Virus record (IMG/VR): IMGVR_UViG_3300025711_000251
Location: 1 to 54,457 of that record
DNA: 54,457 nt
Direction: 5' to 3' (one strand)
Source: a virus
Position 1 is the stretch's first letter; each line of letters opens with the position of its first letter. A model generated the notes under the pieces. It was given only the letters and a program-made list of their open reading frames with translations. It was not told where the DNA came from and ran no database searches. Shown here one piece after another: positions 27,621 to 50,345 of the stretch. The position numbers and the translations under genes are program-made.

Positions 27621-27851
27621 TCAGCTGAAAGGGTCGGCTGGCTTGGCGATCGAGCGCACAAACCACATGAAGCCCTGCTGCAGATTAGTCTTGGCCAGGG
27701 CCAACAGGCGCTGGTCAACGCCCTCAATCTGACCGATCTGCTTGAAAAGCTCGCCCGCATCAGCCTCAAGGGCCTTGATCGAGTTCATGCCGTCGATCTC
27801 GGACTGGGTCAGGTCGCGGTAACCGGTGATCTTCTTGTGCTGATTGTCCAT
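27621..27851 (-). CDS. acb2: Acb2/Tad1-type anti-CBASS cyclic-nucleotide sponge
   Basis: 76 residues: KKITGYRDLTQSEIDGMNSIKALEADAGELFKQIGQ..., with a C-terminal VDQRLLALAKTNLQQGFMWFVRSIAKP. This is the two-helix hairpin pattern of Acb2 proteins, which form hexamers that bind 3',3'-cGAMP and related signals and so stop CBASS abortive infection. Tyr11 and Lys26 fall at exactly the positions reported as essential for cGAMP binding in phage PaMx33 Acb2. It sits in the late operon between lysis and terminase genes. GAGG lies 8 bases before the ATG. The identification is from memory of the family, not from a search. Confidence 0.78.
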   Translation of the reverse strand: MDNQHKKITGYRDLTQSEIDGMNSIKALEADAGELFKQIGQIEGVDQRLLALAKTNLQQGFMWFVRSIAKPADPFS

Positions 27852-28881: not shown

Positions 28882-28957
28882 TGGTTGCGAGGGGTGGATT
28901 CGAACCACCGACCTGCGGGTTATGAGCCCACCGAGCTGACCGCTGCTCTACCACGCA
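28882..28957 (-). tRNA. phage tRNA-Met(CAU) with initiator features
   Basis: A full 76-base cloverleaf with encoded CCA: acceptor TGCGTGG / CCTCGCA (one T-T mismatch at 5-68), D stem GAGC/GCTC, anticodon stem GTGGG/CCCGC, anticodon loop CTCATAA, T arm GGTGG-TTCGAAT-CCACC. Three initiator hallmarks are visible: G-C pairs 29-41, 30-40 and 31-39; A11-U24 in the D stem; and a weak U1-A72 end pair instead of G-C. It lies in the late operon between the bacteriocin immunity gene and the holin. Confidence 0.88.
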
Positions 28958-29019: not shown

Positions 29020-29044
29020 AAAAAGCCCAGCGCGATGGCTGGGC
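29020..29044 (-). terminator. rho-independent terminator after the immunity gene
   Basis: GCCCAGC-N6-GCTGGGC followed by five U on the minus strand. A second weaker GC-rich stem (AGGGGC ... GCCCCT, 28966-29011) with a U-run follows before the tRNA. Late antitermination must read through both to reach the tRNA and holin. Confidence 0.65.
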
Positions 29045-29083
29045 CTTGTCATAACACTGCCGCCGATAAGGGCAGCTAGCTTT

Positions 29084-29383
29084 TTACGGCCTCCCCAAGC
29101 TCAACTCTAGGTGACCGTCACAACTAATCATGGCGAGGTATTGCTCCCCGTCCAAGTCGAACGGTACCACCCACCAGTCGTTTGTGGTGTCGTAGCGCGA
29201 TCCATCCTTCAGTACGTACTTACCTACCGCGCTCTTGTCGTGCCTGCTGTAGTAGCTATCAATCGAGCTTTTGAAGAAGGCCTCGCCATTACTTTGGCAT
29301 GACTGCTCCTTTGACTTATCCTCGCATCCCGCCATCGCGAGAACAGCCAAAATCATGTAAATCCCTGAGGCCTTCTTCAACAT
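29084..29383 (-). CDS. lipoprotein, probable M-type bacteriocin immunity protein
   Basis: 99 residues from ATG 29383, 4 bases after the bacteriocin stop. The signal peptide ends in lipobox LAMAGC (cleavage before Cys20). The mature domain has two further cysteines, Cys29 and Cys88, and the pattern CQSNGEAFFKS ... WWVVPFDLDGEQYLAMISCDG. Colicin M immunity protein (Cmi) is likewise a membrane-anchored periplasmic protein of similar size with one disulfide and an LLVPF ... YYGMYHC segment. Context and pattern agree; no search was possible. More A+T-rich than its neighbours. Confidence 0.72.
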   Translation of the reverse strand: MLKKASGIYMILAVLAMAGCEDKSKEQSCQSNGEAFFKSSIDSYYSRHDKSAVGKYVLKDGSRYDTTNDWWVVPFDLDGEQYLAMISCDGHLELSLGRP

Positions 29384-29387
29384 CTGC

Positions 29388-30290
29388 TTACCTGCTTCCA
29401 GTGAACTCGACTTTTTGTGCATCGAGGAAGTTAATCGTGTAATCCGCGTGGCCGAACGTATCCCCCAATTGACGCAGGAAGGTGGTGAGAGCTTCCTGTG
29501 CCCATGACCGGTTACTAAGATCGGCATCATACCGGTCAGGGTTCAGAGTGAACGATCCGGAGAACGAGTACTGGCCATCGGCAGTAATCGTCAATGTACC
29601 AGTGAGAGAACCACTGATTCGCCCGATCATACCAGCTGCAGGCAAGTCCAGCGGAGCTCGACTAAAAGTGTTGTAGCTGAATGGCGACGCTTGTAGCTGG
29701 TAAATGCCAGCCCCTTTTGATGCATCGTTGAGAATGTCAGTGATCGGAGTAAAGTCGGTCGAGACCACCTGCAGATCCAGGGAGCCGATGTGAACGTATC
29801 GATCAATGCCGCCACCGAACAGCCAATAGCCTATCGCAGCGACGGGCATCAGCGGCGTCCCAACGAAATCAACGCCGTGAGTTCCCCAGGCAGCAGTCCA
29901 ATCCACGCCACTGGTTAGAAACTGGCCGTAGTAATCCTTTAGAGTGGCATTCTGGTCGGCAGCCAGAGAATAGAGACCCGCATTCCCCAACGAAAACGCC
30001 CCATAACAGTGCATTGCCAACTGCCGCTTCACGATATCGTAGGTCTGGTTACTAATCCCCTTGCATACCTCGTTCAGAGCCGTAACGGAGTCGCCGTCAG
30101 CGACTGCATCCCAGACAGCTTCACCGTTGAGGGTTGTTGCGGAAGCGATGAGCGGAATTTCAAGGATCTGTCGAACGTAGGGAGGAACGCTCTGAAAGCT
30201 GGCATCCCAGCTGGAATCGTATGCATAGGTCTCAGACGAATCACTCGATCCGTAAATAACAGTAGGAGGCAGTTCAATAGGGCCAGCCAT
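29388..30290 (-). CDS. colicin M-type (lipid II-degrading) bacteriocin
   Basis: 300 residues from ATG 30290, with GGAG 8 bases upstream. The C-terminal half follows the colicin M catalytic fold: YWLFGGGIDRYVHIGSLDL, FSYNTFSRAP, GMIGRISGSLTGTLTI, then the signature D252-x-Y254-D255. Colicin M has D-x-Y-D-x5-H-R; here the H and R positions are Arg261 and Ser262. The N-terminus (IELPPTVIYGS) could be a TonB-box-like translocation segment. It would cut undecaprenyl-linked peptidoglycan precursor in the periplasm of competitors. Length matches colicin M (271) and PaeM (289). It overlaps the Com-like gene by 17 bases and is followed by an immunity gene. Confidence 0.82.
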   Translation of the reverse strand: MAGPIELPPTVIYGSSDSSETYAYDSSWDASFQSVPPYVRQILEIPLIASATTLNGEAVWDAVADGDSVTALNEVCKGISNQTYDIVKRQLAMHCYGAFSLGNAGLYSLAADQNATLKDYYGQFLTSGVDWTAAWGTHGVDFVGTPLMPVAAIGYWLFGGGIDRYVHIGSLDLQVVSTDFTPITDILNDASKGAGIYQLQASPFSYNTFSRAPLDLPAAGMIGRISGSLTGTLTITADGQYSFSGSFTLNPDRYDADLSNRSWAQEALTTFLRQLGDTFGHADYTINFLDAQKVEFTGSR

Positions 30291-30477
30291 GGTGTTTCTC
30301 CAATGTAGGCGCCAGGGTTTTAGCCCTAGCAGATTCGCTCGCCGGCGCGCTTGGAGACTCATGGGTCTTCAGGTCATTTAGCGTTCCACAACGGGTACAC
30401 TTGATTTGGATTTCTGTATAAGCGCCCACTTTCGCGAGCAGCTTGCTGCATTTACCGCACCTGTATTCGGATTTCAT
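30274..30477 (-). CDS. com: Com-family zinc-finger regulator
   Basis: 67 residues from ATG 30477 (MKSEYRCGKCSKLLAKVGAYTEIQIKCTRCGTLNDL). The CxxC-x17-CxxC zinc finger and the YTEIQIKCxRC core are those of phage Mu Com, which binds the com-mom mRNA and opens the mom ribosome binding site. Here no mom follows. Instead the gene overlaps the start of the bacteriocin gene by 17 bases, so Com may control translation of the toxin. AAGG lies before the ATG. Confidence 0.78.
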   Translation of the reverse strand: MKSEYRCGKCSKLLAKVGAYTEIQIKCTRCGTLNDLKTHESPSAPASESARAKTLAPTLEKHHGWPY

Positions 30478-30674: not shown

Positions 30675-30700
30675 TAAAAAAACCGGCGCAGTGGCCGGTT
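30675..30700 (-). terminator. first early terminator in the late leader
   Basis: ACCGGC-N6-GCCGGT followed by seven U on the minus strand, about 40-60 bases after the predicted late start site, resembling lambda tR'. It also ends the Q-like operon. Confidence 0.75.
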
Positions 30701-30743
30701 CGTTCGAGGAAGTTGCCGTAGGCAAAATCCTAACTATGGGGAA

Positions 30744-30837: not shown

Positions 30838-31440
30838 CTACGCCGCATCCTTCATCTCGTAAATTACTGCTGCCACCGGGCTCAATGCCATCCGATCCAG
30901 GTCCTCGCAGCACTCGAAAGCGCGCTGCACAAACGGCTCCCAGTCGCGAGCCCAGGCGCATGACTCCAGGCGGCAACCCATCTCGGCGTACAGCCAGGCC
31001 CGAAACTTTTCCGGGCTGGCCAGCGGGTCAGCGTTGGCCGACTGCCCGCCTTGGTGCATGTACTGGTACCGGCGCATCACACCCTTCACCACGTACTCCA
31101 ACTTCTCGCGCTTGGCTGCGGTCATGCGCGGGGACCTGGCCACCACCAGATTGAAGACGACCTCCTCCGCTGCCTCTCGGATATCGTCAGCGCGGCGGCG
31201 GTCGGGACGTGGGGCGTACATGAAATCGCCGAAGACGCGCACCTCTGGGGTGAGCTTGGCGATCGCCGACTGAATCCAGCCAGCCACGGTGCCGTGGGCG
31301 GCAGAATTGGCAGTCACGCCGCGATCCGTGGTCTGAACCGCGGTGCCCAGCAGGCACTGCTGTTCTAGCCCAGAAAGCCCGCCACGGGTTTCAGTGTAGG
31401 TGCAGTCGTGCCAGGCCAACCGCGCGGAATTGATCTTCAT
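30838..31440 (-). CDS. Q-like late antiterminator (by position)
   Basis: 200 residues (MKINSARLAWHDCTYTETRGGLSGLEQQCLLGTAVQTTD...). Basic helical middle (ADDIREAAEEVVFNLVVARSPRMTAAKREKLEYVVKGVMRRYQYM) suitable for DNA or RNA polymerase binding. It is last in the early operon after NinB and NinG, its ATG overlaps the NinG stop, and a promoter-plus-terminator unit follows, exactly the place of lambda Q. I do not see a diagnostic antiterminator motif, so the role is inferred from context. Confidence 0.65.
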   Translation of the reverse strand: MKINSARLAWHDCTYTETRGGLSGLEQQCLLGTAVQTTDRGVTANSAAHGTVAGWIQSAIAKLTPEVRVFGDFMYAPRPDRRRADDIREAAEEVVFNLVVARSPRMTAAKREKLEYVVKGVMRRYQYMHQGGQSANADPLASPEKFRAWLYAEMGCRLESCAWARDWEPFVQRAFECCEDLDRMALSPVAAVIYEMKDAA

Positions 31441-47613: not shown

Positions 47614-48192
47614 ATGATCGAAGTCACCGAAGGGCAGCTCAAGCTGCTGTGGCATACGCTTGGGCTGCGGCCCGATTGCAGAGACAGCCGCACGGTATAC
47701 CGCAATCGTTTCCTCGCAGACCCTGGCCACGACGATGTGCCCGACCTGGAAACGCTGGTAAGCCTCGGGATGATGGGGAGCCGCAATCCTCCGGCCTTTT
47801 GCGACCAGAGCGAAAAGCTCTACTACGCGACGGCGGCCGGTAAGCAGTTCGCAGTCCAGAAGATGCCACCGCCTCCGAAGCTGAGCAACTTTGAGGAATA
47901 CCTCAACGTTGCCGATTGCTACGAAGGATTTGCCCAGTTCCTCGACATCAACGTGCCGCAGTACCAGCAGCGCGGAGAGTGGCGGAATCGTGAATATCGG
48001 ATGGTCCGCTATGCGCGTAACAGCCCCTATCGGCATTACGACCGCCACTACAGCCTCACCAGCTGGTCGACTTACGAAACGCTCGAAGTCGCGGGTGAGT
48101 GGGCGCCCACCATGAAAGCGGCCAAGGCCAGCTACAAAGAAGCCCTCCAGAAACATCGCGCCGAGTTGCGCAGTCAAGCGCACGCCGCCTAA
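47614..48192 (+). CDS. hypothetical protein, 192 aa
   Basis: 192 residues from ATG 47614 (MIEVTEGQLKLLWHTLGLRPDCRDSRTVYRNRFLADPG...), with GGAG 6 bases before it. It contains DLETLVSLGMMGSRNPPAFCDQSEKLYYATAAGKQFA, which resembles a winged-helix segment, followed by a tyrosine/arginine-rich C-terminus. Similar proteins occur in phage early regions. Function unknown. Confidence 0.7.
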   Translation: MIEVTEGQLKLLWHTLGLRPDCRDSRTVYRNRFLADPGHDDVPDLETLVSLGMMGSRNPPAFCDQSEKLYYATAAGKQFAVQKMPPPPKLSNFEEYLNVADCYEGFAQFLDINVPQYQQRGEWRNREYRMVRYARNSPYRHYDRHYSLTSWSTYETLEVAGEWAPTMKAAKASYKEALQKHRAELRSQAHAA

Positions 48193-48260
48193 CCCCACCC
48201 TCCCCTATATCGCCACCTCGGCCAGCCATCGGCAGGCGGGCGGCTGTCTGGAGATATCCA

Positions 48261-49028
48261 ATGCACGTCCTGTTCTGCAGCTACGGGAATGATTCAATTG
48301 CCCTGATCCAATGGGCGCACGAGCGGCAGCTCGAAGATGTGGTTTGCCTGTACTCCGACACCGGCTGGGCTGCTGAAGAATGGCCGGCGCGCGTTGCCCA
48401 GGGCGAGGCATTGGCCCAACGCTACGGATTTCGGACGGTACAGACGCAGTCCGAAGGCATGGTAGCGCTGGTGAAGCGGAAGTGTGGGTGGCCTGGCGCT
48501 GGTGGACAAGGCCAGTTCTGCACCGCCGAATTGAAGGTGCTGCCCGCGCTGGCCTGGCTTGATGAGCATGATCCGGAAAAGCTAGCCACGGCTATGACGG
48601 GCGTTCGCAGGTCGGAGAGCGCTCACCGCGCAGATGCACCGGAACATGTGGTGGAGTCGGAGCGGCACGGCAGCCGAGAGTTATGGCAGCCGCTGGTACG
48701 CCACGACGATGGGATGCGCAACGAGCTGCTGGCTCGAGCCGGCTTCGAAGTGCTGCCTCATCGGTCCCGAGAATGCGAGCCATGCATCAACGCCAACATC
48801 GACGAGCTGCGACTTCTCTCCGAGGACAGGATCCATCTGATCGACATCACCGAGCGCGAACTTGGCTTCACGAAGAAAGGAAAGGCACGGGTGATGTTCC
48901 GGCCCGGCAGAAGAAAAAACGCCGTCGGTATTCGTGCTGTTTTGAAGTGGGCCGTGGCACCCAGGCCGCGCGATCAAATGCAGCTATTCCCGATCAACAA
49001 ATGCGAATCAGGGTATTGCGGTGGCTGA
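48261..49028 (+). CDS. PAPS-reductase-like PP-loop protein
   Basis: 255 residues from ATG 48261 (MHVLFCSYGNDSIALIQWAHER). The PP-loop SYGNDS (residues 7-12) and following helix bind ATP in the phosphoadenosine phosphosulfate reductase / DndC-like superfamily. Further blocks are VVCLYSDTGWAAEEW, KRKCGWPG, a TGVRRSESAHR loop and CEPCINANIDELR with two cysteines. Phage members of this family are linked to sulfur-related nucleotide chemistry or DNA modification, but the substrate is unknown. It lies close to a C5 methyltransferase gene. Confidence 0.82.
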   Translation: MHVLFCSYGNDSIALIQWAHERQLEDVVCLYSDTGWAAEEWPARVAQGEALAQRYGFRTVQTQSEGMVALVKRKCGWPGAGGQGQFCTAELKVLPALAWLDEHDPEKLATAMTGVRRSESAHRADAPEHVVESERHGSRELWQPLVRHDDGMRNELLARAGFEVLPHRSRECEPCINANIDELRLLSEDRIHLIDITERELGFTKKGKARVMFRPGRRKNAVGIRAVLKWAVAPRPRDQMQLFPINKCESGYCGG

Positions 49029-49421: not shown

Positions 49422-50345
49422 ATGACCACAGCAATCGATTTGTTCGCCGGCCTTGGCGGATGGTCCACCGGTGCCCGCGCGGCGGGTGTGGACGTCCTCT
49501 GGGCTGCCAACCACTGGCCCGAGGCCGTAAAGTGGCACGCGGCCAACCATCCCACCACCGACCACGTGTGCCAGGATTTGCACCAGGCGCGCTGGGAGCA
49601 GGTACCGGCCCATGACCTGTTGCTGGCCTCGCCATGCTGCCAGGGCCACTCGAAGGCGCGTGGGAAGGCCTCGGGCAACCCGCAGCATGACTCCTCCCGC
49701 TCCACCGCCTGGGCAGTCGTATCGGCCCTTGAGTATCACCGCCCCGAAGGCGGCGTGGTAGAGAACGTGCCGGAATTCATGGACTGGGCGCTGTACCCGG
49801 CCTGGCTACAAGCGGTCCAGGCGCTGGGCTACCAGGTCGCTCCGCACATCGTCGACTGCGCGGACCTGGGCGTGCCTCAGCACCGGGTGCGCCTGTTCCT
49901 GGTGCTGACCCGCAGCCGTGCACCGCTGATGCTGGAGCTGCACAAGCGCCAGCACGTGCCGGCCGCCAGCTTCCTGGACTTCAGCGCCGGCAAGTGGTCG
50001 CCCATCGTGAAGCCTGGGCGGGCTGCCGCGACCCTCACCCGGGTGGCCAACGGCCGGGCCAGATTCGGTGACCAGTTCATCATGCCCTACTACGGCAAAG
50101 GCTCAGGGCTGACTGGGCGCGACATGGCTAGGCCGATCGGCACCATCACCACCCTGGACCGCTGGGCCTTGGTGCGCGGTGACGAGATGCGGATGCTCAG
50201 CGCCAACGAGGCACTGGCCGCCCAGAGCTTCCCGTCGGACACCCTGCGGCCGGACAACCACCGGCTGACCATGCACATGGCCGGCAATGCGGTTCCGCCG
50301 CTTGCCGGCCAGCGCATCCTCGAAGCGATGATGGCCGCCGCGTAG
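49422..50345 (+). CDS. C5 cytosine-specific DNA methyltransferase
   Basis: 307 residues. Motif I DLFAGLGGWS (6-15), motif IV SPCCQGHS with catalytic Cys73, motif VI VVENVPEF (Glu110), motif VIII PQHRVRLF and motif X GNAVPPLAG. The usual P-P-C-Q is P-C-C-Q here, as in some other phage enzymes. It is a stand-alone enzyme with no restriction partner in sight, so protection of phage DNA from host restriction is likely. Target sequence unknown. Confidence 0.93.
   Translation: MTTAIDLFAGLGGWSTGARAAGVDVLWAANHWPEAVKWHAANHPTTDHVCQDLHQARWEQVPAHDLLLASPCCQGHSKARGKASGNPQHDSSRSTAWAVVSALEYHRPEGGVVENVPEFMDWALYPAWLQAVQALGYQVAPHIVDCADLGVPQHRVRLFLVLTRSRAPLMLELHKRQHVPAASFLDFSAGKWSPIVKPGRAAATLTRVANGRARFGDQFIMPYYGKGSGLTGRDMARPIGTITTLDRWALVRGDEMRMLSANEALAAQSFPSDTLRPDNHRLTMHMAGNAVPPLAGQRILEAMMAAA

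Follow-up and report, generated by a model that had tools for sequence, protein, structure and literature searches.

The Com protein of Haemophilus sputorum was shown by SELEX to select the motif CC(N)2-3GAG in a loop closed by a C-G pair, and the same motif is found in the leader of the mom gene of phage Mu (PMC6483171). Genes resembling com are also familiar from Pseudomonas: about 90% of the llpA genes outside P. aeruginosa have one in front of them, and com-like genes likewise precede other tailocin cargo, their role being unexplored according to the authors (Ghequire 2018; PMC6240691). The sole published test of such a gene that we found concerns P. syringae PG4180, in which a premature stop in the com gene upstream of lscB left levan formation unchanged (data not shown in that study; PMC3899960).

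We have now analyzed a com gene that stands at the head of a bacteriocin cassette in a viral genome, the window (that is, the whole 54,457-bp IMG/VR virus record). Judged by its genes, the source virus is a temperate siphophage of the Pseudomonas type, since the record encodes an integrase, a CI repressor and an anti-repressor along with an O-like protein, NinG, terminase and tail fibre J; a preliminary description of this DNA had placed the cassette in a prophage. As that description also had it, three genes lie in a row on the minus strand, and their coordinates were confirmed: com (30274–30477), a gene for a ColM-family toxin (29388–30290) and a gene for a lipoprotein with two cysteines (29084–29383). 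Upstream of com is a late-region gene (30838–31440, minus strand; PHROG 3373) whose homologues also precede com at four other loci (L006, L007, L114 and L119); the gene position after NinG is annotated as antitermination protein Q-like in phage PAJU2. Terminator-like hairpins were found by consensus scan between this gene and com (30680–30701, minus strand) and, by the scan only, at the close of the cassette (29022–29047, minus strand), the total from the scan being near the shuffle mean and about equal in shuffled DNA.

The window holds further genes of note. A tRNA-Met (CAT) gene (28882–28957, minus strand) lies between the candidate immunity gene and the holin, and phage PP083311 carries tRNA genes at the equivalent position. 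Farther downstream of the cassette, a 76-residue protein (27621–27851, minus strand) contains an Acb2/Tad1 hairpin domain (PF24729, 70.5 bits) and is a candidate anti-CBASS/Thoeris sponge. In the early region, on the plus strand, a phosphoadenosine phosphosulfate reductase-like gene is followed by a DNA methyltransferase gene (48099–49028 and 49422–50345).

The inferred product of com is a 67-residue RNA-binding protein of the CCCC zinc-ribbon kind in which all four cysteines are conserved. It matches PF10122 at 65.1 bits (E 3.8e-18, family cut-off 22.9), as expected of the Mu Com-like zinc finger that had been proposed, and its PHROG annotation is "translational regulator." The next gene would encode a 300-residue bacteriocin. 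The Colicin_M domain (PF14859) is confined to residues 140–287 (63.4 bits, cut-off 27), and a phmmer search of the PDB returned colicin M, pectocins, syringacin M and PaeM. An AlphaFold model built from nine sequences had a pLDDT of 64.7, its N-terminal part being poor and its C-terminal part good, and all 14 of its significant PDB matches were ColM proteins (best E 8.5e-13), in agreement with the colicin M-type fold that had been predicted. Scans of viral and genome contigs with the toxin or the lipoprotein as single proteins gave no close relatives; searches with Com and with families did better. Homologous toxins are present at three loci (L079, L159 and L162; 39–45% identity).

The active-site stretch of the toxin, DRYDADLSNR, is one residue shorter than the alpha-type motif DxYDx5HR and has no histidine, and membership of the alpha type was accordingly rejected. 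Given that the H235A substitution abolishes the activity of colicin M (PMC8469651), the protein could be a catalytically dead relative, belonging to a cassette that has decayed or is otherwise employed. We consider this very unlikely: burkhocin M2 is active with the stretch DKFDADSSNR, which also lacks the histidine and in which the Asp is essential (PMC4661593), and the His-less stretch is common to four related toxins, the window's included, whose frames are intact and whose genes each have a lipoprotein gene behind them. The protein fits the published descriptions of the ColM-beta type in its retained Asp and Arg, its missing histidine and its PmiB-like partner. The assignments of toxin and lipoprotein, made by homology, are firm; that the 300-residue protein is toxic is what we infer from them.

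The lipoprotein (99 residues) begins 4 nucleotides after the toxin stop codon, in the same operon, and has a lipobox (LAMAGC) and cysteines at positions 29 and 88, in agreement with the two-cysteine lipoprotein first described. Each of the toxins of L079, L159 and L162 is followed by a homologous lipoprotein (33–45% identity) with the signature WWxVPFD...SCDGHLEL. PmiB is a lipoprotein of about 100 residues with two invariant cysteines that is found beside such ColM toxins (PMC5277000). By this likeness to the published description of PmiB, and with four toxin–lipoprotein pairs recurring, the protein is a plausible candidate for a PmiB-type immunity protein. The protection of lysogens that the preliminary description ascribed to it is at most a possibility, given that its gene shares an operon with that of the toxin. 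The preliminary description had compared it to Cmi; this is not supported, because a model of the lipoprotein (pLDDT 73) had no fold match in the PDB, nor was there a Pfam match over cut-off, and the YebF-type reading was dropped for want of a YebF/Cmi domain or fold. At the same phage position, L114 and L119 have com, an alpha-type ColM gene (with the HR motif) and a gene for a multi-helix PmiA-type protein.

How general is the placement of com before such cargo? By scanning, Com was found at 49 loci in genomes and at 80 in viral sequences, and 11 cargo families stand behind it: LlpA lectins (30 loci), GH5 (20), DUF642 (18), a protein of about 110 residues (15), a beta-propeller (14), a 214-residue secreted protein (13), an 84-residue protein (7), alginate lyase (6), ColM (4), a 239-residue protein (2) and a pore-forming colicin (1), counts that include near-identical loci and depend on the seed used. 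The pairing of com with a bacteriocin had been thought undescribed, but it is not new, because the review cited above (PMC6240691) and the annotation of EU982300, which places com near a colicin M gene (cma), already report it. The com gene most closely related to that of the window, at L059:4208-5881, lies ahead of a gene for a pore-forming colicin (PF01024) that begins, like the window toxin, with MAGPI-L; the colicin gene is followed by that of a membrane protein, a possible immunity partner. A second Com subtype (L243-L248 and L250) precedes genes for DNA cytosine or adenine methylases. Proteo-phage-1 RNA (RF03044) occurs about 1–2 kb after com at two loci (L006:6109-6186 and L022:5214-5287).

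In the window the ATG of the toxin gene lies 17 nucleotides inside com, an overlap that had been likened to that of mom. The overlap is present, but it is neither a conserved feature nor a mechanism, and we rejected it as such: across 130 com loci, cargo starts range from 35 nucleotides before to 64 nucleotides after the com stop codon. What is nearly constant is the distance from the ATG of com to that of the cargo gene (median 196 nucleotides).

The end of com harbors a different kind of signal. Two hairpins with the loop motif of PMC6483171 stand in tandem there on the minus strand, hairpin 1 (30355–30368; AGAC-CCAUGA-GUCU, motif CCNNNGAG) and hairpin 2 (30336–30347; CGC-CGGCGA-GCG, same motif), and they are followed by an apical hairpin 3 (30312–30329; CUAGGG-CUAAAA-CCCUGG), which is conserved in position, is variable in sequence and precedes the Shine–Dalgarno region. 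Few such hairpin pairs within 40 nucleotides occur in the 54-kb window. Among 58 non-redundant junctions representing the 11 cargo families, every one has at least one C-G-closed hairpin with the CC(N)2-3GAG loop at the end of com, and 49, including the window, have two. Alignment of these junctions revealed near-invariant bases, GAGnCTCgAG and CGCCnnnGAGCG, which form both hairpins. Helices are paired in 97, 96 and 79% of cells. Double-changed cells numbered 44 as compared with 13.9 in shuffles (0/500), and slid controls paired at 26–47% as compared with 90% for the helices; the pair counts are inflated by related rows, and these tests do not remove relatedness. An Rfam search found no family at this element, nor did we find a published description of a Com-type RNA element at com/cargo junctions.

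Could the element be no more than inherited coding sequence, its hairpins and Shine–Dalgarno complementarity by-products of protein conservation and ancestry? Most of the com genes are from related Pseudomonas, and hairpin 1 begins in one frame everywhere, as such an origin would have it. Hairpin 2, however, is read in all three com frames (compare EPRVNAGER with ASLEQSPLSD), and protein conservation therefore cannot explain it. Moreover, paired substitutions (AGGC/GCCU, AGAC/GUCU and GGGC/GCCC) alter the protein and keep the pairing, and elements scoring 50–59 bits persist where com has been destroyed or is absent. We hold this origin to be most improbable. A Com-responsive RNA is instead well supported in the family and, by its sequence, is present in the window, where Com would presumably bind the two hairpins.

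These hairpins also bear on the ribosome binding site of the cargo gene. The Shine–Dalgarno region of the toxin gene, UUGGAGA (30297–30303, minus strand), is the exact complement of a strand, UCUCCAA (30351–30357, minus strand), that shares bases with hairpin 1 in the latter's 3' arm, and over the 58 loci Shine–Dalgarno regions are complementary to strands of hairpin 1 or hairpin 2. RNAalifold applied to the whole junction recovered hairpins 1 and 2 only; it misses the blocking helix because the strands used differ among loci, and we therefore turned to duplex energies. The mean for the Shine–Dalgarno/hairpin duplex was -15.0 kcal/mol, as compared with -8.6 when the Shine–Dalgarno sequence was shuffled, and a locus's own pairs beat those swapped between loci (permutation p 5e-5, relatedness not removed). 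The median pairing of the Shine–Dalgarno region to upstream sequence was 0.70, as compared with 0.23 at 411 control gene starts (p 2e-14). Forcing the Com hairpins to form lowered the median pairing over the 58 loci from 0.72 to 0.40 and that in the window from 0.66 to 0.25, in the latter case at a cost of 6.6 kcal/mol. Taken singly, the window makes a weak example of sequestration: its fold is not unusual relative to shuffles (z about -1) and depends on the stretch that is folded, the Shine–Dalgarno region pairing elsewhere when the stretch runs from 100 nucleotides upstream to 18 nucleotides downstream of the toxin start. The Com-bound and ribosome-blocked folds are predicted to compete, because the hairpin strands pair with the Shine–Dalgarno region of the cargo gene.

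In the mechanism that we propose, the Shine–Dalgarno region of the toxin gene would be shut in the late transcript because it pairs with the final part of the com reading frame, while Com would be made first, from the open upstream part. Com would then bind the two tandem CC(N)2-3GAG-loop hairpins within the pairing region and, as these would be incompatible with the blocking helix, its binding would free the ribosome site. The product, a putative ColM-beta lipid II hydrolase, would be released at lysis, and the downstream lipoprotein would serve as the PmiB-type periplasmic immunity protein. In this view com, toxin and lipoprotein probably constitute a phage cargo cassette governed by a translational switch that Com operates, as in Mu com-mom. 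The genes, folds, hairpins, Shine–Dalgarno complementarity and reuse with other cargo were all observed computationally; the suggestion that Com controls the toxin gains support from the tandem hairpins, whose formation would compete with the occlusion of the ribosome site, and we infer that the control is translational. Such a switch, if true, would explain how a phage might put off making a costly toxin until lysis.

We also searched for the element with covariance models. Model R1, representing the two hairpins and built from 30 sequences including the window, had matches at E <= 1e-3 in 101 of 200 Pseudomonas genomes, the weakest of them due to chance, and model R2, from which the window and L059 were held out, placed positions 30328–30372 ahead of all others in the window, although with a score of no more than 17.1 bits (E 6e-5), and found L059 at 27.8 bits. 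The com genes ahead of DNA methylase genes were missed by R1, yet hairpin 1 is kept in them. Among 74 R1 matches that we examined, 53 lay in an intact com gene, whereas in 16 com was broken or absent, and there the cargo start was 85–92 nucleotides after the start of the element. Examples are the element ahead of an LlpA-like gene at L195 (53 bits) and the one ahead of cma at L140 (58 bits), where com lacks its first cysteine. Matches were also found just upstream of levansucrase genes. Two apparent elements were set aside, one (G449) being coding DNA without com and the other (G121/L213) a chance match.

All 11 sampled genomes with com-less elements have a Com gene, as compared with 62 of 200 overall, which points to action in trans; duplication and decay by descent would yield part of the same pattern. 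The findings suggest one ancient phage protein switching on many different cargo genes. We put at even chances the broader view that Com acts in trans, at the post-transcriptional level, on a Pseudomonas regulon of several genes, whose elements come with or without their own com and whose members would be bacteriocins, tailocin lysis enzymes, glycosidases, alginate lyases, levansucrases and DNA methylases. At L195 (G101:C66:18000-26000) four elements lie within 3.4 kb, each before a different cargo gene, and com is intact at the first alone. At three other loci (L203, L207 and L209), an intact com lies about 12 kb away from com-less elements that precede the gene for a 183-residue protein (LTxRQLxxIYPLAGQR), perhaps the lysis enzyme of the tailocin.

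Another explanation sees com and its 3' segment as a portable promoter and recombination module, the phage-associated promoter element (PAPE) of P. syringae, behind whose phage promoter cargo is swapped; the hairpins would then persist as DNA or through descent, and Com would play no part in translation. Eleven unrelated cargo families do indeed stand behind the same module, and the PAPE drives transcription of lscB/C, with the com stop having no effect (PMC3899960, PMC3973379). That negative result speaks against the switch, although an effect could have been masked by further com copies at other PAPEs of PG4180 acting in trans, and action of this sort would offer a reason for the outcome of a single-com mutant. 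A mere promoter module accounts poorly for loops that match the Com SELEX motif, for a hairpin 2 kept across reading frames, for Shine–Dalgarno regions complementary to hairpin strands and for a spacing from element to cargo start that holds even without com; in addition, the DNA upstream of com is conserved at only part of the loci. We therefore judge it unlikely and favor the translational switch.

Finally, we compare the cassette with the systems that most resemble it. The PAPE of P. syringae levansucrase (PMC3899960) likewise contains com and has the same RNA element just upstream of the levansucrase genes, but it has been described as a promoter, and a com stop mutant there had no phenotype. 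In the ColM-beta systems with BmiB/PmiB immunity (PMC4661593, PMC5277000) we see an active-site stretch that likewise lacks the histidine (DKFDADSSNR in BurM2) and a downstream two-cysteine lipoprotein of about 100 residues; the window cassette differs in its location in a siphophage late region behind com. The lectin-like bacteriocins and other tailocin cargo of Pseudomonas (PMC6240691) resemble it in having a com-like gene directly before the bacteriocin gene in a phage element, and the LlpA loci L006 and L007 even share its upstream gene; the review names the com gene only, leaves its role open and describes no RNA element. The role of com before most Pseudomonas lectin bacteriocins is thus an open question in print, which the RNA element makes testable. 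As for Mu com-mom (PMC6483171), both systems encode a zinc ribbon of the Com family immediately ahead of the target gene and have a CCNNNGAG hexaloop hairpin beside a structure, in the window a predicted one, in which the start signals are concealed. Here, in contrast, the hairpin is present twice in tandem, with arms that pair with the Shine–Dalgarno region, the target is a bacteriocin gene, and related elements occur without an adjacent com. The best reading, in which translational control would be the working principle, is that a Mu-type Com-mom switch has been reused with a ColM-beta bacteriocin as its cargo, and the RNA element would extend the Com-RNA rule from Haemophilus Com to many cargo families.
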